From Cupriavidus pauculus (GTDB taxonomy: Bacteria > Pseudomonadota > Gammaproteobacteria > Burkholderiales > Burkholderiaceae), in assembly GCF_003854935.1 (NCBI RefSeq), contig NZ_CP033970.1:868001-932000 (forward strand): a stretch of DNA of 64,000 nucleotides, given 5' to 3'. Shown here in pieces: positions 5,622 through 49,794 of this stretch (position 1 is the stretch's first letter; each line of letters starts with the position of its first letter). The notes under the pieces were generated by a model, which saw only the letters and a program-made list of their open reading frames with translations, was not told the DNA's origin and made no database searches. Position numbers and translations under genes: made by a program.

Positions 5622-5662
5622 GACGGGGCGGGCCGGCGGGGCCGGCGTGCGGAAGGCATCAG

Positions 5663-5683
5663 CCGGCGGCCCAGGGCCGCCGG
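5663..5683. other. GC-rich perfect hairpin between convergent genes
   Basis: CCGGCGGCCC and GGGCCGCCGG are separated by one base, making a near-perfect inverted repeat between the convergent deacetylase and glycosyltransferase stop codons. No T-tract follows on either strand. It may slow convergent transcription, but a terminator role is not proven. Confidence 0.4.
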
Positions 5684-5700
5684 TGTGCTTCATGCCGGCG

Positions 5701-8033: not shown

Positions 8034-8070
8034 CGTCAGTCCCTGGGCTGCGAAAGGGCCCGGCGGCCGT

Positions 8071-8691: not shown

Positions 8692-8794
8692 GTTGCGGCT
8701 CCTTCAACCGGCCAGGCCGGGGGGCGATACCCTGATCGTGACGCTGCATTGCCGCATCGACCGTACGGCAGCCCACAAACGTGCGGACGGCGCG

Positions 8795-10057: not shown

Positions 10058-10342
10058 CTTGTTGTTCCGTCCTGGCGCCGGTCTGGCGGATGTTCGGGGC
10101 ACGGCGTGGGCCGCCGCGCACGCGGTCAGCCTCAGACGGAGTCTACGAACGCCCGGGCCGGCGCTATGTTCGAGGCCGCACGCTTTGCCGCTGTGCACCA
10201 TCCTGTGGGGCACCGAACAGAGATCGGGGGGGTACGCGCCTACGCTCCACTACGGCGGGACGTCCCTTCGTTGCGGCGGCCGCCGGCCGTGTGCGCCATG
10301 GGGCGCGCGGCCCGGCTTGCAACGGTTTTTCTGGAGGCGTGC

Positions 10343-11746
10343 GTGACAACGACAAAAGGCGGGCTGCTCGGCAGCGATACCGAGGTGGCCGTGGCGCCGG
10401 CGGGGTTTGGGACGCAGGACCACAGCGCGGCGGAACGCGCCAGCCAGGCCACCCGCGCGCTGCGGCTGGCCGTGGCCAGCTCGATGGTGTCCAAGGCGTG
10501 CAGCATCGGCCTGCAGGTAGTCAGCATTCCGCTGTTCGCGCGCGTGCTGTCCACCGACGACTTCAGCGCGATGATGGTCTACTTCGGCATCTCGGCCTGG
10601 CTGTCGCTGGTGGCGATCGGGGTCTGGCCGACCATCACGTCGATCGCGGCCGACGACAAGAAGTCCGGGCTGCTGCCGGGCGTGCTGGCGGTGTCGCTGG
10701 GCGGGCTGTCGGCGATCTTCGTCTCGGTGATCGTGCTGGTGCTGGTGCTGCGTCCGGTGCTGGAATCGAGCGGCGTGAATCTGTTCTCGGCCAGCCACTA
10801 CGACCTGTTCCTGGCCGCGCTGGTCTGCTACGCGATGCTGACCGTGCTGTCCGTGGGCGAGGCCGTGAACCAGGGCCAGCACCGCCAGCACGTGAACAAC
10901 CTGATCACGGCCGGCGGCAGCGTGCTGAACGTGGTGTTCATCCTGCTGGTGACGTTTGCGCGGCCAGAGGGCCAGGCGCACGTGGACGTGACGCTGCTGT
11001 TCATCGCCAGCCAGCTCGGGTTCATCCTGCTGCGCGTGTTCAACATGGCCGGCGTGCTAATGCGCGTGGGCCGTCCGCATGCATTCCCGGGCATGGCGTT
11101 CGCGCGCGAACTGGCACGCAACACGCGCGCGCTGGTGCAGGCGCAGCTTGCCGTGGCGTTCCTGCAGCAGGGCACGGTGCTGCTGTGCTACGAGATGGGC
11201 ATGCCGCGCGACGCGGCGCTGCTGGCGCTGCTGTTCCGCGCCAACATGCTGCTGCACAGCCTGGTGTTCATGATCAACCAGCCGCTCTGGCCCATCATCC
11301 ACCGCAACATGCTGGCCGGCGACTGGCCGTGGGTGTCGCGGACGTACCGCAAGCTCGCCACGTGCTACGTGGCCTACGGGCTGATGGCGGTGGCCGTGGC
11401 CACCGTGGCGGGCGGCGCGGCGGTGGCGCTGTGGACAGCCGGCGAGTACCCGATCTCCAACGGCCTGGCCACGCTGTGCGCGGTCTACTTTGCCGTGCTG
11501 GTCACGTCGCAGGCCAGCGCGCCGGTGCTGATGGGCGGGCAGGCGTTCGGCAGCCTGGGGAATATCGGCACGATGGAGTTCCTGGCCGCCACGGTCGGCT
11601 GCGTGGTGCTCTACCTGGCCCACGCGGTGAACTTCCCGAACATCGTCGTGGCGCTGATCGCGGCCAATGCAGTCACCGCGCTCTGGATGATGCCGACGCG
11701 CGCGCTGGGCCTGATCCGGCGCGGCGCGCTGGCGGGCAGCCACTAG
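10343..11746 (+). CDS. wzx: Wzx-type polysaccharide flippase
   Basis: Polytopic inner-membrane protein of the MATE/MVF type that should flip lipid-linked repeat units to the periplasm. I chose GTG 10343 because GGAGG ends five bases upstream. Upstream in-frame codons add a low-complexity stretch with no membrane character. The 467 residues show about 12 hydrophobic segments, beginning with LRLAVASSMVSKACSIGLQVVSIPLFARVLS, typical of the first Wzx helices. It is the only plus-strand gene amid leftward polysaccharide genes and is convergent with the polymerase gene, separated by a strong bidirectional terminator. Confidence 0.85.
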   Translation: MTTTKGGLLGSDTEVAVAPAGFGTQDHSAAERASQATRALRLAVASSMVSKACSIGLQVVSIPLFARVLSTDDFSAMMVYFGISAWLSLVAIGVWPTITSIAADDKKSGLLPGVLAVSLGGLSAIFVSVIVLVLVLRPVLESSGVNLFSASHYDLFLAALVCYAMLTVLSVGEAVNQGQHRQHVNNLITAGGSVLNVVFILLVTFARPEGQAHVDVTLLFIASQLGFILLRVFNMAGVLMRVGRPHAFPGMAFARELARNTRALVQAQLAVAFLQQGTVLLCYEMGMPRDAALLALLFRANMLLHSLVFMINQPLWPIIHRNMLAGDWPWVSRTYRKLATCYVAYGLMAVAVATVAGGAAVALWTAGEYPISNGLATLCAVYFAVLVTSQASAPVLMGGQAFGSLGNIGTMEFLAATVGCVVLYLAHAVNFPNIVVALIAANAVTALWMMPTRALGLIRRGALAGSH

Positions 11747-11883
11747 CGGGCCTGCACGGCGCCCCGGCGCCCCGCAACGAAGGGGCCGGGGCAACGGCCC
11801 GGCCTTCCCCCGATCCACGTCCGCAGCGCCAGCCTTGCCGTCCGGCATCCCATCCGATTCCCCTTTTCCGGCCCCCAAAGCAG

Positions 11884-11917
11884 AACGCCCCGCTTGCCGT
11901 GCGGCAAGCGGGGCGTT
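11884..11917. terminator. Bidirectional terminator between wzx and the polymerase gene
   Basis: A perfect 15-bp stem (AACGCCCCGCTTGCC at 11884-11898, GGCAAGCGGGGCGTT at 11903-11917) has a GTGC loop. It lies between convergent genes: rightward transcripts read TTGTC after it, leftward ones TTCTGCTTT. Confidence 0.8.
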
Positions 11918-11945
11918 GTCGTGGCGGGGATATTCGCGCGGCGGT

Positions 11946-13385
11946 CTAGTGCGCGGGCCGGGCCGGGGCGGGACGCAGCGGCGGTGCCGCCGGCGCGCGG
12001 CGGGCGTGGCGGCTGCGCTTGCCGCGCACGAACCACGCGACGGTCAGGAAGGCCATGGCCGCGCCGCTGCCGTAGGCCATGGCGATCATCAGCGCGCCCC
12101 GCAGGGCAAAGATCAGGAACAGCGAGAAGTAGATGCTGGCGGGCCGGGCCACCGGGTTGTCGCCGTGGAACAGGCGGTCCAGCAGGCGTACCACCCAGGC
12201 CAGCGCCACCGCATAGGCGATCACGCCGGGCACGAGGAAGTCGATATAGGCTTCCGCGATCAGCGGCGCCGACAGGTTGTCGAAATCGAGCTTGTAGTAG
12301 GCCATCAGGAACTGGCCGATGTCGATGCCCGTGGCGTGCGGCTTGTTCTCCCACAGCGTGTGCGGCACGAAGAACAGCAGGCTGCCCATCAGCTGCTGGC
12401 CGTAGTGCGCGCCGTCGCGGCTGACCATCTCCAGCACCGTGCAGATGTTGGCCCACGCGTCGTAGTGCAGGTCCAGGAAGTGCTCGAAGTAGAGCCAGGG
12501 GTCAAGCACGTCGGTGGGGTGCCAGGCGGTCAGGTCCACGTGCGTGAAGACCGACAGCAGCGGAAAGAACACGCCCGTCATCAGCAGCAGCGTGGCGGCC
12601 TGGCGGCGCGACGTGCGCGAGAACCAGCGCACCATCAGCAGCACCAGCGTCAGGTAGACCGGGCCGATGGCGTTGCGCTTCTCGATCAGCGGGTTCTGCG
12701 CAAACAGTACGCAGACCAGCAGGAACAGCGCCACCATCAGCCAGAACGGCTGGCGCAGCAGCTTCATGCCCTTGACGTTGACCAGCATCAGCAGCATCGG
12801 CACCGGCAGGAAGCACAGGTACTTCTGCTGCAGCAGGTACTGCGGCGTGACCTCGATGATCTCGGCCTGCGCGCGCAGGTCGATCGACTGCCACGACAGC
12901 GCGGCGGCCAGCCCCGCGATGCCCACCATGACGAATGCCCGCGGCACGGTCAGCCGTGGCGCGGGGCGGGGCGGGGCGGCGTGGGGGCGTCGGTTCGGTG
13001 GCCGGTGGCGGTCATGCCGGCCAATGTAGCCGCGCATGCCCACGTAGACCATGATGAACAGCGTGCACAGCAGGTTGGTGGCCACGGCGGGCGCCTCTTC
13101 CAGCGTGGCGGTGTTCACCATCACGCCGTCGAAGTAGGCGCGCTGCACCACCGGCGCCACCACCAGGAACAGGATCTCGAACAGCAGCACCCCGGCATCC
13201 GCCAGCGACGGATGCCGTTCGCGCCCGTGCACGAACCAGTGCATGACGACCGTCGCGGTCAGCAGCACGGTGGATAGCAGCAGCATCGGCGAATCGATAT
13301 GCGAGACGACGTGGCAGTACCCGACGATCGCAAACAGTGATGCCGCCAGCAGCATGTCCCAGAGGGACCCGGCCGACAGTCGCAT
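11946..13385 (-). CDS. Oligosaccharide repeat-unit polymerase (Wzy-like)
   Basis: Integral membrane protein of 479 residues with about 10-12 predicted helices and a larger central periplasmic loop (HVDLTAWHPTDVLDPWLYFEHFLD). This is the general plan of Wzy polymerases, which join flipped repeat units in the periplasm. Primary sequence is poorly conserved in this family, so the call rests on topology and on the position between wzx and the GDP-fucose genes. AGGAG lies 8 bases before the ATG. The C-terminus is a basic, Pro/Ala-rich cytoplasmic tail. It lies just 10 bases after fcl in the same leftward operon. Confidence 0.75.
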   Translation of the reverse strand: MRLSAGSLWDMLLAASLFAIVGYCHVVSHIDSPMLLLSTVLLTATVVMHWFVHGRERHPSLADAGVLLFEILFLVVAPVVQRAYFDGVMVNTATLEEAPAVATNLLCTLFIMVYVGMRGYIGRHDRHRPPNRRPHAAPPRPAPRLTVPRAFVMVGIAGLAAALSWQSIDLRAQAEIIEVTPQYLLQQKYLCFLPVPMLLMLVNVKGMKLLRQPFWLMVALFLLVCVLFAQNPLIEKRNAIGPVYLTLVLLMVRWFSRTSRRQAATLLLMTGVFFPLLSVFTHVDLTAWHPTDVLDPWLYFEHFLDLHYDAWANICTVLEMVSRDGAHYGQQLMGSLLFFVPHTLWENKPHATGIDIGQFLMAYYKLDFDNLSAPLIAEAYIDFLVPGVIAYAVALAWVVRLLDRLFHGDNPVARPASIYFSLFLIFALRGALMIAMAYGSGAAMAFLTVAWFVRGKRSRHARRAPAAPPLRPAPARPAH

Positions 13386-13395
13386 GGTAGGTCTC

Positions 13396-14394
13396 CTACG
13401 CGTGGGTTTCCACGGCGTGCGGCTTGATGTCCCGGCTCAGCCGCCCGCTGGACATGGCGTCCTGGTAGGCGATCTGCAGGCCCGATTCCAGCGCCACCAG
13501 CGGACGCCAGCCCGTGCCGTTGATCACGCTGCTGTCCAGCCGCTTGCGCGGCGTGCCGTCCGGGCGCGACGTATCGAAGCGGATGCTGCCTTCGAAGCCC
13601 ACCACCTTGGCCACCAGCAGCGCCAGGTCGCGGATCGACACTTCCTCGTCGGTGCCCACGTTGAGAAAGCCGGCCGCGCCGACATGCTGCCGGTAGGTCT
13701 GCGACGGCAGGTTCATCACGTGGACGCAGGCGCGCGCCAGGTCGTCGGCGTACAGGAATTCGCGCATCGGCGTGCCCGAGCCCCAGATCGTCACGTCGGG
13801 CGCGTTGGTCAGCTTGGCCTCGTGGAAGCGGCGGATCAGCGCCGGGATCACGTGGCTGTTCTCGGGGTGGTAGTTGTCGCCCGGCCCGTAGAGGTTGGTC
13901 GGCATCACGCAGCGGTAGTCGGCCCCGTACTGGCGGTTGTAGCTCTCGCAGAGCATCATGCCGGCGATCTTGGCGATGGCGTAGGGCGCGTTGGTGGGCT
14001 CCAGCGCGCCGCTCAGCAGGGCGGATTCGCGGATCGGCTGCGGCGCCAGCTTCGGGTAGATGCAGCTCGACCCAAGGAACAGCAGGCGCTGCACGCCGCC
14101 GTTCCAGGCTTCGTGGATCACGTTGGCCGCGATCATCAGGTTCTGCTGGATGAACTCGGCCGGGTAGGTGTCGTTGGCGTGGATGCCGCCCACGCGCGCG
14201 GCGGCCAGGTAGACCTGCGAGATGCGCTCCGTCGCAAAAAAGTAGCGCACTTCGTGCTGGTCCGTCAGGTCCAGGTCGGCGTGGGTGCGGCAGACCAGTT
14301 CCACGTCGTCGCGCGTGGAGAGTGCCCGTGCAATGGCGGAGCCAACCATGCCCCGATGACCCGCGACGAAGATGCGTTGTAGTTGTCTATTCAT
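13396..14394 (-). CDS. fcl: GDP-L-fucose synthase
   Basis: Converts GDP-4-keto-6-deoxy-mannose to GDP-L-fucose by epimerisation and NADPH reduction in the cytoplasm. The 332-residue extended-SDR protein has GHRGMVG at 12-18 (NADP binding), SS at 109-110, and the YxxxK pair Y138/K142 (YAIAK). [26 protein letters not shown] is interrupted by nothing unusual. Its ATG overlaps the gmd stop by eight bases, consistent with the sequential use of the two enzymes and with translational coupling. Confidence 0.95.
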
Positions 14395-15595
14395 GGTAGT
14401 CGTATGTCCGGAAGCCTGCCATCTTGACCAGCGCGTCGCGGCGGGCCGACAGGAAGTCCGCCTCGATCATCTCGTTGACCAGTTCCGTGAAGCTGATGCG
14501 CGGCGTCCAGCCCAGCTTCTCGCGCGCCCGGGTGGCATCGCCGAGCAGCGTTTCCACCTCGGTCGGGCGGAAGTAGCGCGGGTCCACCCGCACGATCACG
14601 TCGCCCACCTTGCAGCGCGACGACAGCTGGCGGCCATCGGCACGGATCTCGGAGATGATGCCCACCTCGTCCACGCCGCTGCCCTCGAACGTCACGGTGA
14701 TGCCCAGCCGCTGCGCGGCGGCGGCCACGAATTCCCGCACGCTGTGCTGCTCGCCGGTGGCGATGACAAAGTCCTCGGCCACGTTCTGCTGCAGCATGAG
14801 CCACTGCATTTCCACGTAGTCGCGGGCATGGCCCCAGTCGCGCAGCGCGGACAGGTTGCCCAGGTACAGCGTCTCCTGCAGGCCCAGCGCGATGCGGGCA
14901 ATGGCGCGCGTGATCTTGCGCGTGACAAAGGTCTCGCCGCGCACCGGGCTCTCGTGGTTGAACAGGATGCCGTTGCATGCGTACATGCCATAGGCCTCGC
15001 GGTAGTTCACCGTGATCCAGTAGGCGTAGAGCTTGGCCGCGGCGTACGGGCTGCGCGGATAGAACGGCGTGGTTTCCTTCTGCGGGATTTCCTGCACCAG
15101 GCCGTACAGCTCGGACGTCGACGCCTGGTAGAAGCGCGTGTCCTTTTCCAGCCCCAGGATGCGCATCGCCTCCAGCAGGCGCAGCGTGCCCACCGCGTCG
15201 GTGTTGGCGGTGTACTCGGGCTCCTCGAACGACACCTGCACGTGGCTCTGCGCGGCCAGGTTGTAGATCTCGTCCGGCTGGGACTGCTGCACCACGCGCA
15301 CCAGGCTCGCCGTGTCGGTCATGTCGCCATGGTGCAGGATCAGCCGGCGGTCGTCGGCCTGCGGGTCCTGGTACAGGTGGTCGATCCGCTCGGTGTTGAA
15401 CAGCGAGCTGCGTCGCTTGATGCCATGGACCTCGTAGCCCTTTGCCAGCAGGAACTCCGTCAGGTACGACCCGTCCTGCCCGGTGATGCCCGTGATCAAG
15501 GCGCGCCTTGTCCCGTTGCGTCCGCGCGGCGACGGTGCCCGGTCGGGCGTCTGTTCCTTGTCGGTTGCGAGTTTGTCCAGATCGATTGCGCCCAT
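14387..15595 (-). CDS. gmd: GDP-mannose 4,6-dehydratase
   Basis: Makes GDP-4-keto-6-deoxy-mannose from GDP-mannose, the first step to GDP-fucose. The NADP-binding motif GITGQDG is at residues 36-42 when the ATG at 15595 is used. STSELYG and YAAAK supply the catalytic Thr/Ser, Glu, Tyr and Lys. This start leaves an N-terminal extension of about 28 residues before the conserved TRRALITG; no good ribosome site marks a later start, and an ATG at 15670 would lengthen it further. Otherwise the protein is of normal length (402 residues) and well conserved throughout. Confidence 0.94.
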
Positions 15596-15716
15596 GGCCG
15601 TCACATGTTGGTTGCCGATGGGGATGACTGTATTGAGCGTGCCGGGGGGCCACTGTCTGCTATCCCACACAGTGGGGCGTGCCCGTCATCCGGATGGGAT
15701 GAGGCCCGAAAAGCAA

Positions 15717-15749
15717 ATCGGGCGCCGGCCCGGAAAGGCGGCGCCCGAT
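15717..15749 (-). terminator. Rho-independent terminator of the LuxR-type regulator gene
   Basis: A 10-bp stem (ATCGGGCGCC at 15717-15726, GGCGCCCGAT at 15740-15749) is followed leftwards by TTGCTTTTC. It lies 28 bases beyond the regulator stop codon and before the gmd start. Confidence 0.7.
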
Positions 15750-15776
15750 GGCGTCCTGCAAGGCCGCTGGCGCGGC

Positions 15777-16721
15777 TCAGACGACCGGCATGCCGGCGTC
15801 GTAGGTGGGGTCGTCGCGGCGGGCAAACGCGCGGCGGGCGGCGCCGTCGCGGGCGGCGTGCTCGTCGCCGTTGACCCATTCCAGCGTGGCGCCGCGCTGC
15901 AGCGCCGCGTACACCGCCTCGCCCTTGTTGCGGACCTTGAGGCGCTGGTAGAGCGTGCAGGCATGGCTCTTCACGGTGGCCACCGAGATATTGAGCATGC
16001 GGCTGACGGTCTTGATCGGATAGCCCCGGGCCAGCAGCACCAGCACTTCATACTGGCGCGGCGTGATCTTGAGCATTTCCGCCTCGTCGTAGCTGGGCTC
16101 CTCCTCGGCCATCGGGATGGCCGTCACCGGCAGGGCGGATGTCGACGCGATGGGCTGGCCGGGCCGCAGGCTGGTCAGGTCGCGCACCGCCACGGCGGCA
16201 CGCATGGCGCTGGCGCAGGCCGATGGTGACGCCGGGTCCTGCGGCATGGCCGCCGACAGCGGCAACGGGGCCGCCGAAGCCAGCGACGTGGCCGCCGGCA
16301 TGGCCGAGCGCGACGCCACCGGCGTGGCCACGGCCTCGCCCGCGAACATCAGCCCTTGCACGCTGGAGATGGCCAGCCGGATGGCGGCCTCGATCACCGC
16401 CAGCGAAGCCGATTTCGGCAGGCAGCCGCAGATGCCGCGCGCGGCGTCGGCGGATGGCACATGCAGGGGCAGGGTATCGGCCAGCAGCAGGATGCGTTGC
16501 GGCGCCAGCCGCTCGCGTGCCTGTTCCAGCTGTTCCCAGCCGGTGGCCTCGTCGGCCGGCATGCCGAAGACCAGCAGGTCGGCGTTTCGGTGTGGTGCGT
16601 CCAGGCGATTGATGTCGGCCGGCGCCAGCGCCAGCACGTGTCCGGATTCCTGGATGGTTTCGAGCATCTGCAGCAGCCCGAGCCGGAGCAACGGATGCTC
16701 CTCGATCAGCAAGGCGTTCAT
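15777..16721 (-). CDS. LuxR/NarL-type regulator with a degenerate receiver domain
   Basis: The 314-residue DNA-binding regulator starts at ATG 16721, with GGGGAG 8 bases upstream. Residues 1-115 look like a response-regulator receiver: an acidic pair (E7/E8) and the conserved Lys (LPK, K103) are present. The phospho-acceptor Asp expected near residue 53 is missing (DLLVFGMP has Phe-Gly there). An Ala/Ser/Pro-rich linker of about 100 residues leads to a C-terminal LuxR helix-turn-helix (ITPRQYEVLVLLARG, VSRMLNISVATVKSHACTLY). No histidine kinase lies beside it. Its location next to gmd/fcl suggests control of exopolysaccharide synthesis, probably without phosphorylation. Confidence 0.85.
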   Translation of the reverse strand: MNALLIEEHPLLRLGLLQMLETIQESGHVLALAPADINRLDAPHRNADLLVFGMPADEATGWEQLEQARERLAPQRILLLADTLPLHVPSADAARGICGCLPKSASLAVIEAAIRLAISSVQGLMFAGEAVATPVASRSAMPAATSLASAAPLPLSAAMPQDPASPSACASAMRAAVAVRDLTSLRPGQPIASTSALPVTAIPMAEEEPSYDEAEMLKITPRQYEVLVLLARGYPIKTVSRMLNISVATVKSHACTLYQRLKVRNKGEAVYAALQRGATLEWVNGDEHAARDGAARRAFARRDDPTYDAGMPVV

Positions 16722-24133: not shown

Positions 24134-24821
24134 GGTTTTGCCTGGCGCATGCGCTAACAAGTCCTTGATGGGACTAATGTACGTTAAATCAGACATAGAG
24201 CCTAGCATGAAACACCCTAGTGGCGCCGACGCCGCGGTATTACGCGGCATTACCCGTTGCGCGCCGGGGCGGTGCACCGGTTCCGCAAGAAAGGCGGCCG
24301 CCGCGGATGGATTCACGCCGCGCGCCGGCGTGTCCGGCTCACCCGTACGGGTCGGTGCCCGGGCGGTCCGGCAGCGACCCGGCATGGTGCGCGCGGCCGG
24401 CACCGCCTGCGCGGCATACCGTCCACCCGGCCAGCGTTGTTTCATGGCCGTTACGGCGCGCCCGCGCGCGGGTTTGCGCGGGGGTACGTGCTAACTCCTT
24501 GAATGGAAGCCGATTTTCCGCAGGGGGTCGGCCGATGGCCGGCTACCGGTCCCAACCTATGTCACAACGGTGTGACATGTCTACTGCCAAGCACAGGCCC
24601 CGCGCCCTGCGGCAGGGCAAATGCACCAGGAAAGTTCTCCTCCGAAACGGCGCGGGCCCTTGTATTTCCAGAGCTTTTCGCCGAAAGGGGGCACGCTGGC
24701 ACCGAATATGCGCAATGGGCGGCTGGTCTGGCAACCGTGCCGGACCTGAACCTCCAGCCGCTGTTCCCGAGAGCGCCGGCCGGAGGCTGAGCCGCTGCAA
24801 CAAACTTCCTGGGAGCTTCGT
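24134..24821. other. Long intergenic region upstream of the amyloid-like operon
   Basis: Nearly 690 bases between the divergent GntR gene and the Gly-rich protein gene. Open frames on the plus strand (24220-24825) are Arg/Pro/Ala-rich and have no ribosome site, so I treat them as chance. The right half holds one clear palindrome (24559-24578), a plausible regulator site for the operon. The 5' untranslated region may be long. Confidence 0.45.
24559..24578. promoter_or_regulatory. Perfect 8-bp palindrome, candidate operator of the amyloid-like operon
   Basis: ATGTCACA and TGTGACAT are separated by ACGG, an exact inverted repeat 244 bases before the start of the Gly-rich protein gene. It stands out in an otherwise unstructured GC-rich intergenic region. 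The binding protein is unknown. Confidence 0.45.
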
Positions 24822-26351
24822 ATGAAAAAGACTTTACTCGCGTCGGCAATCGCGCTGGCCTTCGCTAGCACTGCCTGGGCGAATCCGACCAACAACAACC
24901 ATGGTGAGGGTGACAACACCAATACCGCTACGGCGACTTCGACGCAAAGCGGGGCCGGCGCATCCGCCAACGAATACTCGAAGACGTACCAGGACAACAG
25001 CACCGATACCCGGACCGCCACGCTCAGCTCCACCCGCACTTCCACGCGGACCACCACCCAGACCAACACCCAGTCCCGCAACCGCACCACGCAGGAGCTG
25101 GGCGGCATGGGCAACGCGGCGGCGGCCAATGGCGGCACGGCCACGGCCAACTTCAGCAACGCGTTCAACTCCAGCCGCGCGCTGGCGGTGAGCCGGCTGA
25201 ACGGCGCCGTGTCGGGCAACACCATCTCCAACATCGGCAACTACGCCACCAACAGCGGTAGCGCGGCAGGCGCCACCGGCGGCGCGGGCGGCGCGGGCAC
25301 CGGCGGTACCGGGCAGGGCGGCAGCGGCGGCAACGGCGGCAACGGCGGCGCCAGCGGCAACGGCGGCTCGGGCGGCAATGGCGGCTCGGCCACCAACGGC
25401 AGCGCAACGTCGGGATCGGCCTACAACGACGGCGCATGGGCCGGCACCGGCGGACGCGGCGGCAATGCCAGCGGCGCCAGCGGTGATGGCGGCAATGGCC
25501 GCGGCGCGGGCGGCAGCGCCCTGACCGCGAGCCTGGGCGCCGGCGGACGCGGCGGCTCGGCCCTGGGTGCGGGCGGCAGTGCGGGCGCAGGCTCGCGCGG
25601 CGGCGCCGGTGGCGATGGCGGCTATGCGCGCGGCAGCGGCGGCTCCGGCCTGGGCGGCGGGCTGGGCGCTGGCCTGGGTGCCGGCGGCAGCAGCGGCTCG
25701 ACCAACACGTCGAACGAGCGCGGCGCGGGTGCTGGCGGTACCGGCACTGCAACGGCAGGCGCAGGTGGCGCGGGCTCCGGCACCGGCACCGGTACCGGCA
25801 TGGGTACCGGCGCGGCAGGCACCGGCACCGGCGGTGCGGGCGCGGCGGGTGGCACGGCTACGGCCACGGCATCTGGCGGCGCAGGCTCGGGCACGGGCGG
25901 CGCCGGCGGTGCGGCCACGTCGACGGCGGGTGCGGCCACGGCCGGCACCGGCACGGGCACCGGCGGTGCGGGCGGCGCGCAGAACAGCGTCGCGGGCGCT
26001 GGCGGCGGCGGCGGCTCGGCCACCAATGGCAGCTCGACCACCACGGCCTCGAATGGCAGCGCCACGGGCGCAGCCGGTGCGGTGGGCGCGGCATCGGGCC
26101 CCGGCGGTGCGGGTGGTGCCGGCGGCGTCGGCAATGGCGGCACGGGCGGTGCGGGCAATGGTGCGGTGGGTGGCGCTGGCGGTGCCGGCGGTACCAACTA
26201 CGTCGATGCCGGCACGTTCAACATGTCCAACGCCATGACCAGCGTCGGTCAGTCGGCGGCGGGCATCATGATCGCCAACCAGAACAGCGGCATGGCATCG
26301 CTGGTGCAGCAAAGCGTCAATGTGCAGGCCAACATGAACGTTGGCAGGTAA
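24822..26351 (+). CDS. Secreted Gly/Ala/Ser-rich protein, candidate amyloid or matrix subunit
   Basis: A 509-residue exported protein. MKKTLLASAIALAFASTAWA is a clear signal peptide cut before NPT. Residues 21-150 are Ser/Thr/Asn-rich. About 150-457 is an extended Gly-Gly-X low-complexity region (GGAGGAGTGGTGQGGSGGNG and similar) resembling PE-PGRS or glycine-rich matrix proteins. The last 52 residues change to a Gln/Asn-rich, regularly patterned tail (SVGQSAAGIMIANQNSGMA, LVQQSVNVQANMN) that recalls Fap amyloid repeats (AAG..NQQ). CTGGGAG precedes the ATG. It is the first gene of a co-directional set with a C39 peptidase and a FapF-like pore, so it is the likely main export substrate. Confidence 0.8.
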   Translation: MKKTLLASAIALAFASTAWANPTNNNHGEGDNTNTATATSTQSGAGASANEYSKTYQDNSTDTRTATLSSTRTSTRTTTQTNTQSRNRTTQELGGMGNAAAANGGTATANFSNAFNSSRALAVSRLNGAVSGNTISNIGNYATNSGSAAGATGGAGGAGTGGTGQGGSGGNGGNGGASGNGGSGGNGGSATNGSATSGSAYNDGAWAGTGGRGGNASGASGDGGNGRGAGGSALTASLGAGGRGGSALGAGGSAGAGSRGGAGGDGGYARGSGGSGLGGGLGAGLGAGGSSGSTNTSNERGAGAGGTGTATAGAGGAGSGTGTGTGMGTGAAGTGTGGAGAAGGTATATASGGAGSGTGGAGGAATSTAGAATAGTGTGTGGAGGAQNSVAGAGGGGGSATNGSSTTTASNGSATGAAGAVGAASGPGGAGGAGGVGNGGTGGAGNGAVGGAGGAGGTNYVDAGTFNMSNAMTSVGQSAAGIMIANQNSGMASLVQQSVNVQANMNVGR

Positions 26352-26532
26352 GCGGCTGGCGCGCTCTGTTCCGTTCCGCACGGAGCGGGACCGGGCCGCC
26401 AGGGTTCAATCCGGCAGGGCGGGGCCGCGCGGCGCAGGTTTGCCGCGCGGGCCCGCATCGGCCGGCAGGCCTGCAGGTTCGCGGCGGTGGCGGCCCACGC
26501 CACTGCCCGGGGCGCACAAGGGGAGACGCACC

Positions 26533-26994
26533 ATGCGATCGCTACGCCGAGCTGTCGTCACGCTGTCGACAGCCTTACTGGTCTGGCCATTTGCCCAGGC
26601 CAATGCAGGGCCGCCCGGCGCCGAGGCATCCGCCACGGCCAGCGTGGTCGCGGGCAGTGATTCCGGCGCAGCCACCGCGGTGGCGGGCGCAGCGGCCAGT
26701 GTCGCGGCGATGACGCCGGACCAGGGCCAGAAACCGAACATCTTCGGCACGGCGGCCAGGGCCGTGGCGACCCAGAAGCTGGATGACGTGCGCGGCGGCG
26801 CCGAGGTGGTGGTCAACGACATGCGCCTGCACGGCACGGTTGGCGACAACGCCGCCGTCAACACGTTCTCCGGCAGCAACATCGTGGCCGACGGCTCGTT
26901 CTCGAACGCCGCGGGGTTGCCGACGGTAATCCAGAACTCCGGCAACAACGTACTGATCCAGAACGCGACCATCCTCAACGTCCAGTTCAAATGA
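26533..26994 (+). CDS. Small secreted protein with a TVIQN-type C-terminus
   Basis: A 153-residue exported protein: signal peptide RRAVVTLSTALLVWPFAQANA, GGGGAG 8 bases before the ATG. A short Ala-rich segment follows, then a beta-rich C-terminal half ending in GLPTVIQNSGNNVLIQN and ATILNVQF. The same GLxTVIQN motif recurs in the product of 27703-28854. The regular N/Q and hydrophobic alternation fits stacked beta-strands. Its stop overlaps the C39 peptidase start as ATGA, tying the two together. It could be a minor or nucleating fibre component, or an accessory factor like FapE; this is inference. Confidence 0.75.
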   Translation: MRSLRRAVVTLSTALLVWPFAQANAGPPGAEASATASVVAGSDSGAATAVAGAAASVAAMTPDQGQKPNIFGTAARAVATQKLDDVRGGAEVVVNDMRLHGTVGDNAAVNTFSGSNIVADGSFSNAAGLPTVIQNSGNNVLIQNATILNVQFK

Positions 26995-27689
26995 TCATGC
27001 GCAGCCTGCTGGGAAGGGCCGTCCTGCTGGCGGCGGCGCTGGGCGGCATCGCCAGCGCCCACGCCGACACGATCCGCGTGCCCGGCGACCAGGGCAACTC
27101 GTACTACGTGCCGGTCACGAGCCTGCGCGAGGCGCGGTTCCGCACGACCATCCGGCAGCAATACGACTTCAGTTGCGGCTCGGCGGCCGTGGCCACGCTG
27201 CTGACGTACCAGTACAACTTTCCGACGACCGAGCAGACGGTGTTCGCGAACATGTACGTGAACGGCGACCAGGCCAAGATCCGGGCCGAGGGCTTCTCGC
27301 TGCTCGACATGAAGCGGTTCCTGGAGTCGCGCGGCTTCCAGGCCGACGGCTACGAGCTGCCGCTATCGAAGCTGGAGGAAGCGCAGATCCCGGCGATCGT
27401 GCTGATCGTGGAGAACGGCTACCACCATTTCGTCGTGGTGAAGGGCGTCAAGGGCAACCGTGTCCTGATTGGCGACCCGGCCCGCGGCACCCGCGCGCTG
27501 GAGCGCGACTACTTCGAACGGATCTGGGACAGCAGCCTGCTGTTCGTGATCCACAACCGGACCGACCAGGCCCGTTTCAACCAGGCGTCGGACTGGCGGG
27601 TAGCGCCGACCGGGCCATATTCCACAGGCGTGCCGCGAGACAGTCTGTTCTTCACCGTCATGCCCAAGCATGGCATCTCTGATTTTTGA
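26991..27689 (+). CDS. Periplasmic C39-family cysteine peptidase (FapD-like)
   Basis: A 232-residue papain-like peptidase of the bacteriocin-processing C39 family, but with its own signal peptide (LLGRAVLLAAALGGIASAHA) and no ABC-transporter domains. The catalytic residues are Cys62 (QYDFSCGSAAVATLL), His146 (YHHFVVVKG) and Asp162 (IGDPARG). This matches FapD, the periplasmic C39 protein of Pseudomonas fap amyloid operons, needed for fibre export. It is translationally coupled to the gene before it and followed after 13 bases by the next. Processing of the neighbouring secreted proteins is the expected role. Confidence 0.88.
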   Translation: MIMRSLLGRAVLLAAALGGIASAHADTIRVPGDQGNSYYVPVTSLREARFRTTIRQQYDFSCGSAAVATLLTYQYNFPTTEQTVFANMYVNGDQAKIRAEGFSLLDMKRFLESRGFQADGYELPLSKLEEAQIPAIVLIVENGYHHFVVVKGVKGNRVLIGDPARGTRALERDYFERIWDSSLLFVIHNRTDQARFNQASDWRVAPTGPYSTGVPRDSLFFTVMPKHGISDF

Positions 27690-27702
27690 GCTGAGGAACA
27701 TC

Positions 27703-28854
27703 ATGGCCCGAACCACCGATTCACCCCCGCCAAGACGCAGCGCCGGCCATGCCACGGCCGCCGTGCTGTTTGGCGCGGGGCTGGCCTGCGCGGGACACGC
27801 CCAGGCCAATACCGAGAGCCTGGCCAGCGATCCACCGGAGCCGGCCAGCCATGCCGACGTGGCGGTGGCGATGGCCGTCGACATGACGGCGCTGCCGGCC
27901 GCCGTGGAACTGCCCGCGGAGCGGCCGGCCGAGGTGGCCACCCAGGCAGAGGCCGCCGTATCGACCGTGCGGGGCGTCATGACGGCGCCCGCGCATGCGG
28001 TGCTGGGCGCGCTGCCCAAGGCCCAGCCGGCGCCGGCGCGCGTGTTGCCGGTGGACAAGGCCAGCGTGGCGAAGCACCACCCGGCGCAGGATCCGCTGGC
28101 GGCTGCCATGACGCTGGCCACGCGCGAGCCCGTCAAGCCGGTGTCCGATGCCCGCAAGCAGATGGCCGGCTGGAAGCCGGTGGCGGAGGCGCGGCTGGAG
28201 GAATCGCGCGGCGGCTTTGACGCCGGCGGCCTGCAGGTGGGCTTCGGCATCGACCGCGCCGTGTTCGTGAACGGCGCGCTGGCGGTATCCACCAGCATCA
28301 CGATTCCCGATATCAGCGCGATCACGGCCGCGCAGGCGACGCAGCTGGCGCAGGCGCTGGGCCATGTCACGGTGGCGGTGAATGCCGCCAACAGTGCGGC
28401 CAACGCCGCGGTGGCGTCGGCGCAGGCCGCCGCGGCGGCGGCCCAAGGCGCGGCGGGACAGGCCGGGCAGGCCGCCACCACGGCCGCCAATGGCGCTTCG
28501 GCGGCGGCACAGGGCGCGGCGGGCACGGCCAGCAGCACGGCCAGCGCTGCGGCGGCCGGGGCGTCGGCGATTGCCGCCGGTGCATCGGGCGCGGCGCAGC
28601 AGGCCGTGGCCAGCGCCGGCACCATCGTCACCAACGGCCTGCTGACCGTGATCCAGAACGGCGCGGGCAACTCGGCAAACATGGGTGCGGTATCGAACAT
28701 GCCGGGCACCGTGATCCAGAATAACCTCAACAACCAGAACATCCAGAGCCTGATGACCCTCAACGCAAGCGTGAACACCCTGGCGGCGTTCCGCTCACAG
28801 ATGGCAAACACCGCGTTGAACAGCGTCATGCAAAGGTCCGCGGCACTGAGGTAA
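27703..28854 (+). CDS. Secreted Ala-rich protein with two TVIQN motifs
   Basis: A 383-residue exported protein; the ATG at 27703 has TGAGGAAC upstream and a signal peptide ending near GHAQA. Residues 36-190 are Pro/Ala-rich. At about 190-225 a short ordered stretch reads FGIDRAVFVNGALAVSTSI. An Ala-rich helical or low-complexity block runs from about 228 to 306. The last 77 residues are N/Q-rich with TVIQN at 315-319 and 336-340, then QNIQSLMTLNASVNTLAAFR. The tail matches the C-terminal motif of the small protein at 26533, suggesting the two are partners or are recognised by the same exporter. Confidence 0.78.
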   Translation: MARTTDSPPPRRSAGHATAAVLFGAGLACAGHAQANTESLASDPPEPASHADVAVAMAVDMTALPAAVELPAERPAEVATQAEAAVSTVRGVMTAPAHAVLGALPKAQPAPARVLPVDKASVAKHHPAQDPLAAAMTLATREPVKPVSDARKQMAGWKPVAEARLEESRGGFDAGGLQVGFGIDRAVFVNGALAVSTSITIPDISAITAAQATQLAQALGHVTVAVNAANSAANAAVASAQAAAAAAQGAAGQAGQAATTAANGASAAAQGAAGTASSTASAAAAGASAIAAGASGAAQQAVASAGTIVTNGLLTVIQNGAGNSANMGAVSNMPGTVIQNNLNNQNIQSLMTLNASVNTLAAFRSQMANTALNSVMQRSAALR

Positions 28855-28925
28855 ATCGCGAAAGTCGTGAACGAACAGGTGCGGGCCCTGCGGTTTGCCC
28901 GCCGTCCCCGGGGGAGGAAGACGTC

Positions 28926-30362
28926 ATGAAGAAGCGTTCGCTGCAGGGCATCGGCTATGCCGGATGCTCGATGCTGCTGTTGGGCGGCATGGCACAGGCG
29001 CAGACATCGCCGTATGCAGGCCCGCCAGCGGCCTCGCGGCTGGAAGCGCTGCAGAAGGAACTGGCCGTCCAGGCCCGCCAGCTAGAGGAAATGCGGCGCG
29101 CGCTGGCCGAACAGCAGGCCACCATCCGCGAACTGCGCAACACGGTGAACAGCGACACGCTGTCGCACAAGCGCGGCGGGCAGGGCGCGGGCGTGACCGG
29201 CGGCAACATGGCCACCAATGCCGCCGCCGCGGGCGCGGCCGCCAGCGCCACCCAGATCAACAACACCGCGCAGCAGGGCGTGCAGGCCCAGCAGGCACCC
29301 GTGGCCGCGCCGCCGGACGCCCCGCCGCAGGCGCAGGCCGCCCAGCCGGGCGAGTCCGCCGCGGGCGTGGAGGAACCGGTGGGCCGGCCGCCCGAGCGCG
29401 AGACCCGGCCGCCCGAGATCGCGCCGATCTTCGACCAGCCCGGCGTGCTGACGCCGGCCAACAAGCTCGTGGTGGAGCCCAGCTTCCAGTACGGCTACTC
29501 GTCCAGCGACCGCGTGGCGCTGGTGGGCTACACGGTCATTCCGGCCATCCTGATCGGGCTGGTGGACGTGCGGCAGGTCAAGACGTCCACCTACATCGGC
29601 GCGATGGCGTTCCGCTACGGCATCACCAAGCGGCTGGAGATCGAAGCCAAGATCCCGTACGTGCATTCCAGCAGCGATACGGTGAGCCGCGAGGTCTTCA
29701 CCGGTACCGCGTTCGACAACGTGTTCAGCTCCAGCGGCAGCGGGCTGGGCGACGTGGAGGCGACGCTGCGCTACCAACTCAACTACGGCAACGAGAAGAT
29801 GCCGTTCTTCATCGGCTGGCTGCGCTACAAGTCGAACACGGGGCGCGATCCGTTCGAGGTGGTGACCGACTGCGTCACCCGCTGCGTGAGCAACACCACG
29901 GGCACCGGCCTGCCGCTGGGCATGCCCACGGGCACGGGCTTCCAGGCCATCCAGCCGGGCGTGACGTGGCTGCTGCCGACCGATCCGGCCGTGTTCTTCG
30001 GCACGTTCAGCTACCTGCACAACTTTGCGCGCGACAACATCAGCCGCACCGTGCTGAACGGCGAGAAGGAATTCCTGGGCAAGATCTCGCCCGGCGACAT
30101 CTTCCAGTTCAACTTCGGCATGGGCCTGTCGCTGAACGAGCATGCGTCGTTCAGTATCGGCTACGACCAGAGCATCATCTGGCCGACCAAGCAGAACGGG
30201 CAGACCATCCCGGGGTCGGTGCGGATCACGCAGGGCACGCTGCTGGTGGGCTACTCGTACCGCTTCAACAACCGCTACACGCTGAACCTGTCGGTGGGCG
30301 CCGGGCTCACGCGCGACACGCCCGACCTGACCGTCACCGTGCGCCTGCCGATCACATTCTGA
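28926..30362 (+). CDS. Outer-membrane beta-barrel exporter with coiled-coil plug region (FapF-like)
   Basis: A 478-residue outer-membrane protein. After the signal peptide (ends AQAQ), residues about 36-74 form a heptad-patterned coiled coil (LEALQKELAVQARQLEEMRR). An Ala/Pro/Gln-rich linker follows to about 165. The rest is a beta-barrel with alternating strands and a terminal Phe (VTVRLPITF), the outer-membrane assembly signature. This architecture is that of FapF, the trimeric pore that exports Pseudomonas amyloid subunits. A pair of cysteines (TDCVTRCVSN) may form a disulfide in a loop. AGGAAGACGTC precedes the ATG. Last gene of the set. Confidence 0.85.
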   Translation: MKKRSLQGIGYAGCSMLLLGGMAQAQTSPYAGPPAASRLEALQKELAVQARQLEEMRRALAEQQATIRELRNTVNSDTLSHKRGGQGAGVTGGNMATNAAAAGAAASATQINNTAQQGVQAQQAPVAAPPDAPPQAQAAQPGESAAGVEEPVGRPPERETRPPEIAPIFDQPGVLTPANKLVVEPSFQYGYSSSDRVALVGYTVIPAILIGLVDVRQVKTSTYIGAMAFRYGITKRLEIEAKIPYVHSSSDTVSREVFTGTAFDNVFSSSGSGLGDVEATLRYQLNYGNEKMPFFIGWLRYKSNTGRDPFEVVTDCVTRCVSNTTGTGLPLGMPTGTGFQAIQPGVTWLLPTDPAVFFGTFSYLHNFARDNISRTVLNGEKEFLGKISPGDIFQFNFGMGLSLNEHASFSIGYDQSIIWPTKQNGQTIPGSVRITQGTLLVGYSYRFNNRYTLNLSVGAGLTRDTPDLTVTVRLPITF

Positions 30363-30527: not shown

Positions 30528-31040
30528 ATGCGCAAACGGATCTTCTGGTTGTTGCCGGACCTGGCGAGCGCCCGCCGCACCATGGACGACCTGCTGCTGG
30601 CCCGCATCGAGAACCGCCACATCCACTTCGTGGGACGCGACGGCGCCGACATGACGGGCCTGCACGAAGCCAACCTGTTCCAGACCTCGGACATCGTCCA
30701 CGCGGCCGAAATGGGCCTGATGGTGGGCGGTGGCGTGGGCATCGTGGCAGGCGTGGTGGTGGCGATGTTCCCGATCGTCAGCGATACCCCGCAGTGGGGC
30801 CTGGTCGGCGTGCTGGCGGTGCTGGGCGCGGTGTTCGGCGCGTGGGCATCGAGCATGATCGGCAGCTCGGCCCCGAACAGCCGGTTGCGCGTGTTCGAGA
30901 AGGATATCGAGTCGGGCAAGCTGCTGCTGATGGTGGACGTGCCGCGCGGCCGCGTGGAGGAAATCGAGACGCTGCTGCAGAACGCCCATCCGGAAGCCCG
31001 CTTTGCCGGCCTGGACCCCGCCGTCCCGGCCTTTCCCTGA
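30528..31040 (+). CDS. DUF1269-family membrane protein
   Basis: A 170-residue inner-membrane protein with a cytoplasmic N-terminal alpha/beta domain (IFWLLPDLASARRTMDDLLL), two adjacent membrane segments near 62-110 rich in Gly/Val (GLMVGGGVGIVAGVVVAMF), and a C-terminal domain (LLLMVDVPRGRVEEIETLLQ). This is the layout of DUF1269 proteins, often linked to stress responses; the biochemical role is unknown. AGAGGAGGCAAGTC gives a strong ribosome site. It lies 165 bases after the amyloid-like operon and may or may not be co-transcribed. Confidence 0.83.
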   Translation: MRKRIFWLLPDLASARRTMDDLLLARIENRHIHFVGRDGADMTGLHEANLFQTSDIVHAAEMGLMVGGGVGIVAGVVVAMFPIVSDTPQWGLVGVLAVLGAVFGAWASSMIGSSAPNSRLRVFEKDIESGKLLLMVDVPRGRVEEIETLLQNAHPEARFAGLDPAVPAFP

Positions 31041-45035: not shown

Positions 45036-47264
45036 TTAGTGGGGAAACTGAATCGACCACCGAGTGGATTCCCTCATGTCGGGCGTCGCGTCGATGCGCT
45101 TTGCCCGGGTCTCATCCTGTTCTCTCTGCTTTGCCTCCTCCACTTCGTCGGTCAGGCCGAAGGTATCGGTAGCGCGCGTCTGGAAGTACAACGTTGGCGA
45201 CAGGACGTGATCGTGCCAACTGGTCAGCATCGTGTCATGAACCAGCATGTCGAACAGCATCATGACTTTCTCGGGCAGTGGCTTCATGCCCGTGGCGCCC
45301 TCCTTCCACGCAGTGGCAAGCGCCAGTGCCTCGGGGCTCATTAGCATCGACTCCAATGTATCGGCCGCGTTCTTCATGTCGTAATTGTCGTGAGGCTGTG
45401 TCTTGGCGAGGTCTGCCGCCCTTTTTATACCGGCCTGCGTTGACAGCCATCGCGTTTGCGATGCCGCCTCCTCATCGATGCGGTCCCACACCTTCATGGA
45501 GGGACGTTGCAACGCTCCCAACGCATTTCGAAGCGATTCGCGCTCGACATCGTGTGCCTCGGACATACGGATCCAGGCCGCAGCCATCGCCTCGCGATCA
45601 AAGGACGTACGTTGTCTTTCGGCCCGGTACGCGTCTTCGGCCTCTCGGGCTGCCTGCGCCGTTTCCCGATGCTGCCGTTTCAGATCCTCGGCGGGTTCGT
45701 TCAGCAATGTGCGAAACGCCGGCGACTGGTAACGCACCGCCAGCCAGCGGAGAAACACTTCCATATGGGCGGTGAAATCGAGCCCTTCCTTGCGCGGCAC
45801 GAGTTCACGATATGCAGAAATCAGATCCGGGATCTTGTAACTGGCGTTGCCTTGGGTGATGCTTGGCGCCAGCGAGAATTTTTCGTAAGTCTCCGGCTTA
45901 TAGTTCCCCAGTTCTAGCACCGTGTCGAGCCTTGCCCCGGCCATGAGCGCCTCATGCAACATGTCTCTCAGTACGATGCGTTGCAGTTCTCCACGGAATC
46001 CCAACGACCCGGGTGGGGCACCACCCGTGATGTCCTCGCTGGTCCCCGGGTAGAGATATTGCTCACCCCGCGTCTTCTCCAGGCTATCGAGCCGCTGATA
46101 GAAACGCAGTTCGTGCGCCGCCGCAAAATGGACGCATCTCTGGACGATGGCAGGGACGGCAAGCTCGCGGTCGCCGTGGTGCTGTTTAACCATCCCGATG
46201 ACCGGCACCATACTGAGCAACTCATTCGCGGCCATGACCGAGGACACGGAATCGAGCAAGCCGAGAAACCGGATTTCGATGGGATGGCCTTCCTTGCCCC
46301 ACTCGCCGCCGATACGCAGATCCAGATCCGTGCGCTGCTTGTACTTGCGAACCAGTTCATTCACGAACGCGCGTGCGATCACGCCGCCCCGATCCGCCCC
46401 AAACACCGAGACTTCAATGTATTGGACCTTGTCCATCTGCGACGTCACATCGCGATAGGCCGCTTCGAATTGCTTCAAGGCACACTGCAGACGGTCGTGG
46501 ACGCCGGTTCCAAACACCATCGCGGCCGCATGGCTGTCGCGCAGGAAGGGAATGGAATCGATTCCCATATCAACGGCGATGGATTTCACGGCAACCGCCG
46601 CGGCCTTGAGCGGATTTTTCTTGATGTCATACAGCGCTGCCCGGACCGATGCCTTGCCGCGCGCGACCCACCGGCTTTCGCTCGCAAAGGCCAGTACGCG
46701 TCCAGCCTTGGCCGGGATGGCGTTTGCTTCCTTGAGAATATCGTCATGGATCCTTGCAACCGGGCGCCACGACATCTCATCGAAGGCTTCGGATAACGCC
46801 TTCTCTGCCACCTTGCCGGGAATCTTTGGGATATCCAGGATCTTGGACACGCCGGTTGCTTTCGTGGCCGTGTTCGTGGCCGTCTTTGTGGCGAGATTCA
46901 CCGCTGATTTTCCTGCCTTGGTTGCCCCCGAGATAATCTCGCTGTTCTCGGCGTCCTTGTTCAGCGGTGTGCCGAGGCCGGAGTAGTAGAACGGGTACCA
47001 GAACTGGTTCGGGAAATCCTTGCGCCGGGAGTCGTCGTTATCCCGATGTGCTTCCCAGAGTCGGCAGATATTCGAGTAGCGGGATGTCTTCGGATCGTCC
47101 TGGTCCCTGTGACGTCCGAAGCCATCGAAGAAGAACCCCATCTTGACAATCGCGCCACACGGGATGCACTCGTCACGTTTGAGTGCCTTGTGAGAAACGA
47201 GCATGCCGTCGTACACCTCGTGGGGTGTGGCGTCTGCAGGATCGATTTTCCAAGAGTCAGTCAT
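45036..47264 (-). CDS. Tle1-like (DUF2235) lipase-fold protein with Asp at the nucleophile position
   Basis: A 742-residue protein of the T6SS phospholipase effector Tle1 type. The family start motif FFFDGFGRHRD is at 44-54. The nucleophile-elbow region reads VSVFGADRGGVIARAF: the usual GxSxG serine is replaced by Asp291. Other triad candidates remain: Asp338 in LGLLDSVSS and His384 in HFAAAHELRFY. The C-terminal half is helical and unrecognised. It overlaps the last DUF3304-like immunity gene by 8 bases, with AGGAGGGAACC as ribosome site. It has no signal peptide, VgrG, PAAR or Hcp part. A toxin delivered to the periplasm or membrane is inferred. Confidence 0.78.
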   Translation of the reverse strand: MTDSWKIDPADATPHEVYDGMLVSHKALKRDECIPCGAIVKMGFFFDGFGRHRDQDDPKTSRYSNICRLWEAHRDNDDSRRKDFPNQFWYPFYYSGLGTPLNKDAENSEIISGATKAGKSAVNLATKTATNTATKATGVSKILDIPKIPGKVAEKALSEAFDEMSWRPVARIHDDILKEANAIPAKAGRVLAFASESRWVARGKASVRAALYDIKKNPLKAAAVAVKSIAVDMGIDSIPFLRDSHAAAMVFGTGVHDRLQCALKQFEAAYRDVTSQMDKVQYIEVSVFGADRGGVIARAFVNELVRKYKQRTDLDLRIGGEWGKEGHPIEIRFLGLLDSVSSVMAANELLSMVPVIGMVKQHHGDRELAVPAIVQRCVHFAAAHELRFYQRLDSLEKTRGEQYLYPGTSEDITGGAPPGSLGFRGELQRIVLRDMLHEALMAGARLDTVLELGNYKPETYEKFSLAPSITQGNASYKIPDLISAYRELVPRKEGLDFTAHMEVFLRWLAVRYQSPAFRTLLNEPAEDLKRQHRETAQAAREAEDAYRAERQRTSFDREAMAAAWIRMSEAHDVERESLRNALGALQRPSMKVWDRIDEEAASQTRWLSTQAGIKRAADLAKTQPHDNYDMKNAADTLESMLMSPEALALATAWKEGATGMKPLPEKVMMLFDMLVHDTMLTSWHDHVLSPTLYFQTRATDTFGLTDEVEEAKQREQDETRAKRIDATPDMRESTRWSIQFPH

Positions 47265-48054: not shown

Positions 48055-48090
48055 GTTCGACCCTTTCAGCACGTTCTTCATTCCCTGTTG

Positions 48091-48906: not shown

Positions 48907-48942
48907 GTTCGACCCTTTCAGCACGTTCTTCATTCCCTGTTG

Positions 48943-49758: not shown

Positions 49759-49794
49759 GTTCGACCCTTTCAGCACGTTCTTCATTCCCTGTTG

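Follow-up and report, generated by a model that had tools for sequence, protein, structure and literature searches.

A glycine-rich secretion locus in Cupriavidus pauculus, probably a sister branch of the Pseudomonas Fap functional-amyloid system

The stretch of Cupriavidus pauculus DNA analysed here (64,000 nucleotides of NZ_CP033970.1, positions 868,001 to 932,000; hereafter the window, whose numbering is used unless another record is named) carries at 24822-30362, on the forward strand, five co-directional genes that probably specify a fibre secretion system, one that would be sister to the functional-amyloid system Fap of Pseudomonas and share its mechanism. According to the list of open reading frames (ORFs) and their translations, the products are, in order, a glycine-rich main secreted protein (24822..26351, 509 aa; assigned from its ORF, a gene caller and orthologues), a small secreted protein (26533..26994, 153 aa) made of a signal peptide, a variable spacer, a double-glycine leader and one unit resembling a Fap repeat, a FapD-like periplasmic C39 peptidase (26991..27689, 232 aa), an alanine-rich secreted protein that appears to be a distant FapE homologue (27703..28854, 383 aa) and a FapF-like barrel, the presumed outer-membrane export pore (28926..30362, 478 aa). 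A first-pass annotation, made from the sequence alone, had placed five genes here and taken them for a related Fap-like export system; the ORFs lie where it put them, and the FapD-, FapE- and FapF-like proteins, together with the conserved gene order, support its reading. We file the locus as a sister variant of Fap because its working would be Fap-like and three of its components are homologous, while substrates with three repeats each are missing. Signal peptides were assigned by eye. All five genes are also picked by a codon-usage gene caller whose nine seeds from the window included the C39 and barrel genes. It starts the small gene at 26644 and the alanine-rich gene at 27763, later than the signal-peptide starts used here, and it replaced a caller trained on the longest ORFs, which chose antisense ORFs.

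The peptidase is assigned from Pfam, NCBIfam, its position in a tree and its residues. It matches Pfam PF03412 with 85.6 bits and the FapD family NF058616 with 148 bits (E 2e-43; equivalog cut-off 330), and it is about 40% identical to Pseudomonas FapD over about 165 aa. With its Sec signal and its catalytic Cys, His and Asp it qualifies as a FapD homologue. The catalytic residues C62, H146 and D162 are those that had been named from the first inspection, with Q56 alongside; Q56 and C62 are kept in 50 of 51 aligned C39 sequences, the sole gap being a broken copy (L105), and H146 and D162 in all 51. The best relatives of the C39 profile in the PDB are double-glycine or bacteriocin-transporter peptidases. 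In a tree that leaves out L105 and an apparently decayed copy (L171), the peptidases of the locus type form a clade beside FapD, with support of 93/91 for the clade and 97/98 for FapD.

An AlphaFold2 model of the barrel protein as a monomer has an N-terminal coiled coil at residues 35-82 (29028..29171, +; predicted local distance difference test score, pLDDT, about 90), which would lie in the periplasm, followed by a disordered linker and then a beta-barrel; an outer-membrane barrel with such a coiled coil had been predicted. A PTG motif, described for FapF (PMC5557850), can be read at 29925..29933 (+). Set beside FapF, which combines a trimeric coiled coil with a 12-strand barrel, the protein is FapF-like by sequence and structure comparison, the model being that of a monomer, and other folds rank below FapF. 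A relation to curli, autotransporters or FadL was rejected, since Pfam and NCBIfam gave no family matches and these folds also rank below FapF.

The alanine-rich gene sits between the C39 and barrel genes, the position of fapE. When a profile of 31 members was compared with eight canonical FapE proteins, hhalign gave 94.8% and a score of 56.3, whereas 60 shuffles of the FapE columns did not exceed 20.7. By profile, then, the protein appears to be the FapE equivalent, and equivalents of D, E and F would therefore stand in order at the locus. The first-pass annotation had counted two extra secreted proteins; both are present, the alanine-rich one being FapE-like.

The glycine-rich protein consists of 31% Gly overall. 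Within the genus its ends (signal, N/T-rich region, block 1 and tail) are conserved and its middle is variable. Block 1 (25104..25259, +; NAFNSS..L.G.VSGN.I..IGN) is conserved in the genus, and its profile matches seven of 29 substrate-position proteins from elsewhere; a low-complexity stretch of 311 aa with 138 Gly, which differs between species, follows at 25260..26192 (+). The conserved tail, or block 2 (26193..26348, +), whose Q/N pattern had already been remarked upon and which is strongly conserved in the genus, shares homology with the C-terminal end of the small protein (94.6% by hhalign; score 39.8, with no more than 12.7 from 60 column shuffles; 44.8% with genus-only profiles). The last 62 residues of the small protein match the Fap repeats at 75%, a value reached after the profile had been enlarged and trimmed to those residues, with a score of 25.0 against 12.5 shuffled and none of 60 shuffles as high. 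Furthermore, an alphaproteobacterial locus (Indioceanicola, L107) encodes a substrate-position protein with seven matched repeat copies, and its repeat resembles the Fap repeats (87%), the small protein (91%) and the glycine-rich tail (84%); this locus was excluded from the main hhalign profiles except as its own repeat set. We read these matches as the trace of a single repeat family, represented here by one unit, in Fap by three and in L107 by more, the tail being linked to the Fap repeats only transitively, via the small protein and L107, because its direct match is weak. FapB and FapC with three imperfect repeats each were not found at the locus, where the small protein has one unit and the glycine-rich protein one tail; the first-pass annotation had likewise seen neither these nor an obvious FapA. 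FapA was not found by profile either, the small protein having been tried in this role and rejected (hhalign 0.2%), and fapA is frequently missing from accepted fap operons (PMC3792158, in the part of that paper available to us, as with the other papers cited by PMC number). It is proposed that the glycine-rich protein is the fibre subunit in place of FapB/FapC; outside the core genera, the substrate is often rich in N, S, T and D instead of Gly.

The small protein and the FapE-like protein share an R-G-G motif, at 26791..26799 (+; KLDDV-RGG-AE) and 28207..28215 (+; RLEES-RGG-F) respectively, which is likely to be the C39 cut site, with cleavage predicted after the second Gly in the former. 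In 25 divergent FapE-like homologues, with a mean column identity of 16%, RGG and M1 are the only invariant columns. The pattern [LM]-x3-RGG occurs in 48 of 49 FapE-like proteins, 21 of them from Cupriavidus, and in 35 of 49 small proteins (21/21 in the genus, 14/28 in others), counts that leave out L171 and L105, the latter with an RGG in its FapE-like protein as well. Among the best 80 named loci, which are the best matches among those listed, so that all counts from them describe that selection and some of their gene calls are cut short, 78 of 79 FapE-like proteins and 58 of 80 small ones have RGG; L219 and L257, the two loci whose FapE-like protein shows no [LM]-x3-RGG, have gene calls that begin too late. 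Up to and including the motif, both proteins follow one leader pattern, hydrophobic at -12, L at -7, hydrophobic at -4 and G at -2 and -1. In copies chosen for RG[GR] and enough upstream sequence, G-1 and L-7 are present in 47/47 and 44/47 FapE-like leaders and in 35/40 and 37/40 small-protein leaders. These position preferences match the double-glycine leader consensus, LSxxELxxIxGG. The FapE-like leader of one further locus (L099) reads LSDPELSEYRGGF. In the window, [LM]-x3-RGG appears in three of the five locus genes as against one of 52 others (Fisher 0.001; a post hoc test, the motif being known by then). The third of these genes encodes the barrel, where a Cupriavidus-only L-x-x-K-R-G-G at the end of the coiled coil (29160..29180, +) is a possible third C39 site; L...RGG is kept in 19 of 21 genus barrels, the others reading RGM (L065) or being cut short (L062), and is absent from most of 28 non-genus barrels.

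These motifs bear on a question raised for Fap itself. In Rouse 2017 (PMC5557850), the Fap proteins are described as being without canonical C39 sequences and the target of FapD as unclear, and it is also called undetermined in PMC6173800. FapE was reported to be N-terminally processed, the FapF linker perhaps, and FapA to FapD not; the catalytic Cys of FapD is required for FapC secretion (PMC5557850). Since FapD is thought to process FapE and FapF (PMC12822426), FapE as its target is a prior idea, to which the motif is our addition. Canonical FapE keeps the leader pattern with G-K or G-R in eight of eight operons. Canonical FapA (L088-L091) carries a looser leader-like motif, about L-S-D-x-D-F-x-x-V-x-[SG]-G; the reported lack of processing of FapA to FapD speaks against FapA as a cleavage target.

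Transcription may also follow the Fap pattern. A sigma-54 (-24/-12) box, TGGCAC-N5-ATGCG, lies 125 bp before the first gene (24697..24712, +). Because single matches are common in such a scan, the argument rests on conservation: all 19 Cupriavidus sequences with a readable upstream region, the window included, have the box at -120 to -133 (L078 and L081, missed by the start pattern, are outside the alignment), and the intergenic region around it is otherwise diverged. Similar boxes precede the substrate gene in L094, L096, L097 and L099, as well as fapA in canonical fap loci. An inverted-repeat-like element (24658..24672, no strand assigned), whose commonest genus form is CTTGTATTTCAAG and whose window form is CTTGTATTTCCAG, makes a conserved island about 25-35 bp upstream of the box in the 19-sequence alignment and is a possible activator site. 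In P. fluorescens PF07, fapA-E is transcribed from an RpoN promoter and depends on BrfA, whose gene neighbours fapF (PMC9207406). Sigma-54 activators stand beside the module in L094, L096, L097, L099 and L106 (by reading) and near it in nine of 20 further loci (by motif). The nearest homologue of the L094 activator in the C. pauculus genome is intact and not adjacent to the locus (G000:C3:828204-829706); this BrfA-like regulator lies at a distance of about 63 kb, where it adjoins what is left of a canonical fap operon (G000:C3:827296-829706; L190:6797-9207). The relic has a sigma-54 box at C3:827296 and retains 12 residues of the end of FapB and 39 of the start of FapC; a search of 17.5 kb turned up no FapD, FapE or FapF. 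Of 60 Cupriavidus genomes, 58 retain the regulator and six show a canonical FapD-like match. We infer that it now serves the window operon; a Fisher value of 0.006 for regulator versus operon includes incomplete genomes and is not relied on.

Taken together, these data suggest the following mechanism. All five proteins would cross the inner membrane by Sec, after which the periplasmic C39 peptidase would cut the small and FapE-like proteins behind the double-glycine leader (R-G-G); the parts set free, about 64 and 212 residues long, respectively, would both end in units rich in glutamine and asparagine (QN-rich). The cut proteins would prime the trimeric coiled-coil pore and be exported with the glycine-rich protein. 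Outside the cell, the QN-rich tails may stack as fibre core or anchor, the long glycine-rich stretch then serving as spacer or coat. Sigma-54 would drive transcription, probably with the BrfA-like activator encoded beside the relic of the lost canonical fap operon.

Several points weigh against this reading, in which fibres, amyloid and cleavage are predictions. The C39 and barrel matches are far below the curated FapD and FapF cut-offs. The FapE match depends on the set compared (63% for the genus only, 87% for non-genus proteins versus Pseudomonas FapE, 94.8% for the mixed set), and the window protein itself has no FapE match in NCBIfam, nor any in Pfam. The small protein at first matched the Fap repeats at 4% (genus) and 15% (mixed), and its model shows no confident fold (pLDDT 58); the glycine-rich tail matches them directly at 1.5-4.9%, with a score of 15.1 against at most 11.5 shuffled. 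Among the 28 small proteins from outside Cupriavidus, 13 have no RGG, R or K coming directly after G in ten of these; in canonical FapE, K or R stands where the last Gly would be. Mass spectrometry of canonical Fap found peptides throughout FapA to FapD (PMC5557850). Finally, the regulator is retained in three of the five genomes without the operon, and its link to the operon is drawn solely from the promoter and from retention.

Some of these points would suit a different product of the same export machine, namely a flexible glycine-rich surface adhesin or matrix protein, for example in polyglycine-II-like bundles, whose QN-rich tails are only export or anchoring signals. The glycine-rich stretch takes up 311 of 509 aa and varies widely, the repeat-like unit is single and without a predicted fold, and the likeness of the tail to Fap repeats is directly weak. 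We consider this explanation possible, though doubtful, in view of the resemblance of the small-protein unit to Fap repeats, which no shuffle equalled, and of the seven-copy substrate of L107, whose repeat resembles both.

The distribution of the locus bears on whether it is a separate branch. Among named organisms, those with the nearest relatives of the C39 protein belong to Cupriavidus. The C39 gene is present at 70% identity or above in 55 of 60 Cupriavidus genomes (in G053 as two pieces), including C. metallidurans CH34 (86% identity, NC_007974.2:69226-69921); the five genomes without it are G012, G024, G037, G049 and G051, G012 and G049 being 54% and 78% complete. The survey of gene order suggested in the first-pass annotation gave a uniform picture, for the glycine-rich, small, C39, alanine-rich and barrel genes, followed by a gene for a 170-aa membrane protein, keep one order in all 20 Cupriavidus loci examined, so that the five-gene arrangement is not due to chance. 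A divergent GntR gene precedes the glycine-rich gene in 18 of the 20. One locus begins inside the glycine-rich gene (L081) and in another its start is miscalled (L078); these and L062 were left out of some genus alignments, their gene calls being cut. At the level of the phylum, the C39 profile matched 38 of 398 genomes at E <=1e-30, 16 of them with at least 235 bits and the rest with at most 190 bits; within the order, it matched 31 of 250 genomes, 17 of these in the high-scoring group. In 19 of 20 high-scoring places read, the small, C39 and FapE-like genes are adjacent, the other being the apparently decayed L171, and the barrel gene follows on the same strand in some places but is reversed elsewhere. 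Most of the relatives examined share the order; they are mainly Burkholderiales and Xanthomonadales and extend to Alphaproteobacteria, where plasmid records of Polymorphobacter and Croceicoccus have it in full. The best 80 named loci include Cupriavidus, Paraburkholderia, Burkholderia, Variovorax, Duganella, Massilia, Polaromonas, Dyella, Luteibacter, Lysobacter and Pseudoxanthomonas. Among them, the small gene precedes the C39 gene in 80/80, a FapE-like gene follows it in all 79 with a downstream gene, a tailed protein is encoded further upstream in all 77 with a second same-strand gene called (at least 20% Gly in 74 of the 77), and a barrel was found in 73/80.

The homology of the C39, barrel and alanine-rich proteins to FapD, FapF and FapE, in D-E-F order, could also mean that a canonical fapBCDEF operon has merely diverged in Cupriavidus, within the known Fap family. 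This is unlikely, since six of the 60 Cupriavidus genomes have a second, FapD-like C39 match (38-39% identity) and the three such loci read (L082-L084) are complete canonical fapABCDEF operons, with repeated FapB and FapC, in genomes that also carry a locus of the window type. The separate, supported C39 clades argue in the same direction, as does the gap between at least 235 and at most 190 bits in the profile scores, a split that is partly by construction because the profile was built from the locus-type clade.

Compared with the Pseudomonas fapABCDEF system, the locus has in common the FapD-like periplasmic C39 peptidase, the FapF-like coiled coil and barrel, the FapE-like protein, the D-E-F gene order and the sigma-54 promoter, and a BrfA-type regulator adjoins the module in several relatives. 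It differs in that FapA is missing by profile, FapB/FapC are replaced by a single-unit small protein and a large glycine-rich protein with one tail, the leaders read R-G-G instead of the R-G-K or R-G-R (T-G-K in one) of canonical FapE, and the C39 peptidase belongs to a separate clade. The filABCDEF system also has a C39 peptidase and a barrel encoded side by side, but the window proteins score far below cut-off against FilB (124/475 bits) and FilC (34/630 bits), and the only FilB-like C39 sampled (L100), with the barrel directly after its gene, an order unlike that of the locus, falls outside the locus-type clade. Neither a CsgG-type pore nor CsgA/B repeats of curli were found when the five proteins were scanned with Pfam and NCBIfam. 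Homologues of fapD and fapF that colocalise in five further phyla, noted in 2018 (PMC6173800), show the same D-F pairing; the substrates, FapE-like partner, leaders and promoter of the locus-type branch are not described in the part of that paper available to us. Among the matches listed in open-licence PMC full text, neither the Cupriavidus locus nor glycine-rich Fap-like substrates are described, in line with the first-pass annotation, which did not know the arrangement as a described one; Dueholm 2013 or the 2018 review may have counted some of these loci as Fap. A review of December 2025 gives canonical synteny in >90% of 1602 clusters, nearly always with three repeats (PMC12822426). Because its survey required FapB/C repeat homologues, it may have missed the locus-type branch.

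The nap island of Neisseria unites a C39 peptidase, a FapF relative and double-glycine peptides in one locus (PMC11798529). There, the double-glycine products are cationic peptides <10 kDa that promote autolysis, and the available part of PMC11798529 reports no FapE-like protein or glycine-rich substrate. A comparable bacteriocin-like or signal-peptide export locus, in which small active peptides, released by C39, leave by way of the FapF-like pore while the glycine-rich protein is a side product, would fit this precedent and the freed part of the small protein, only about 64 aa long, but is very improbable, since that unit shares homology with the large protein's tail and resembles a Fap repeat, and since a FapE-like and a tailed large protein accompany C39 wherever readable among the best 80 named loci.

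Some further features deserve mention. The 170-aa membrane-protein gene downstream of the barrel (30528..31040, +), looked for in genus loci only, is probably outside the machine, though it follows the locus in the genus. Some 8 kb before the locus, window positions 722-16721 hold an apparent exopolysaccharide synthesis cluster (judged by eye from first residues only), which makes a link through the matrix possible. At 47257-50550 (-) lie four tandem paralogous genes for products of about 250-280 aa with lipoprotein-like starts, adjoined by a 742-aa gene at 45036-47264. Elsewhere, the substrate-small-C39-FapE-like module is tandemly duplicated at L099:1988-7367, with identical small, C39 and FapE-like copies and a somewhat diverged substrate; a Vibrio plasmid carries a copy with a broken C39 gene (L105:6684-7640); and Cupriavidus has a further type of C39-barrel locus (L085, L086), encoding a 170-aa C39-like protein, a 301-aa putative barrel and small proteins.

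The chances are about even that the locus represents a second widespread class of Fap-type systems, in Burkholderiales, Xanthomonadales and some other Gamma- and Alphaproteobacteria, with fibres of QN-rich units and glycine-rich arms gated by double-glycine leaders, C39 cutting a nucleator-like small protein and the FapE-like protein, and that canonical FapD likewise cuts FapE. The FapD targets suspected so far, FapE and the FapF linker, had no recognised C39 motif in the parts of PMC5557850 and PMC12822426 available to us; in the branch described here, the FapE-like protein displays an invariant site open to testing, and the small protein becomes a further candidate target. It also bears on the view of Fap as an evolutionarily fixed three-repeat amyloid (PMC12822426). 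Secreted biomaterials would gain a new class in its glycine-rich substrates, and strains that are easy to grow, C. metallidurans CH34 for one, carry the locus.

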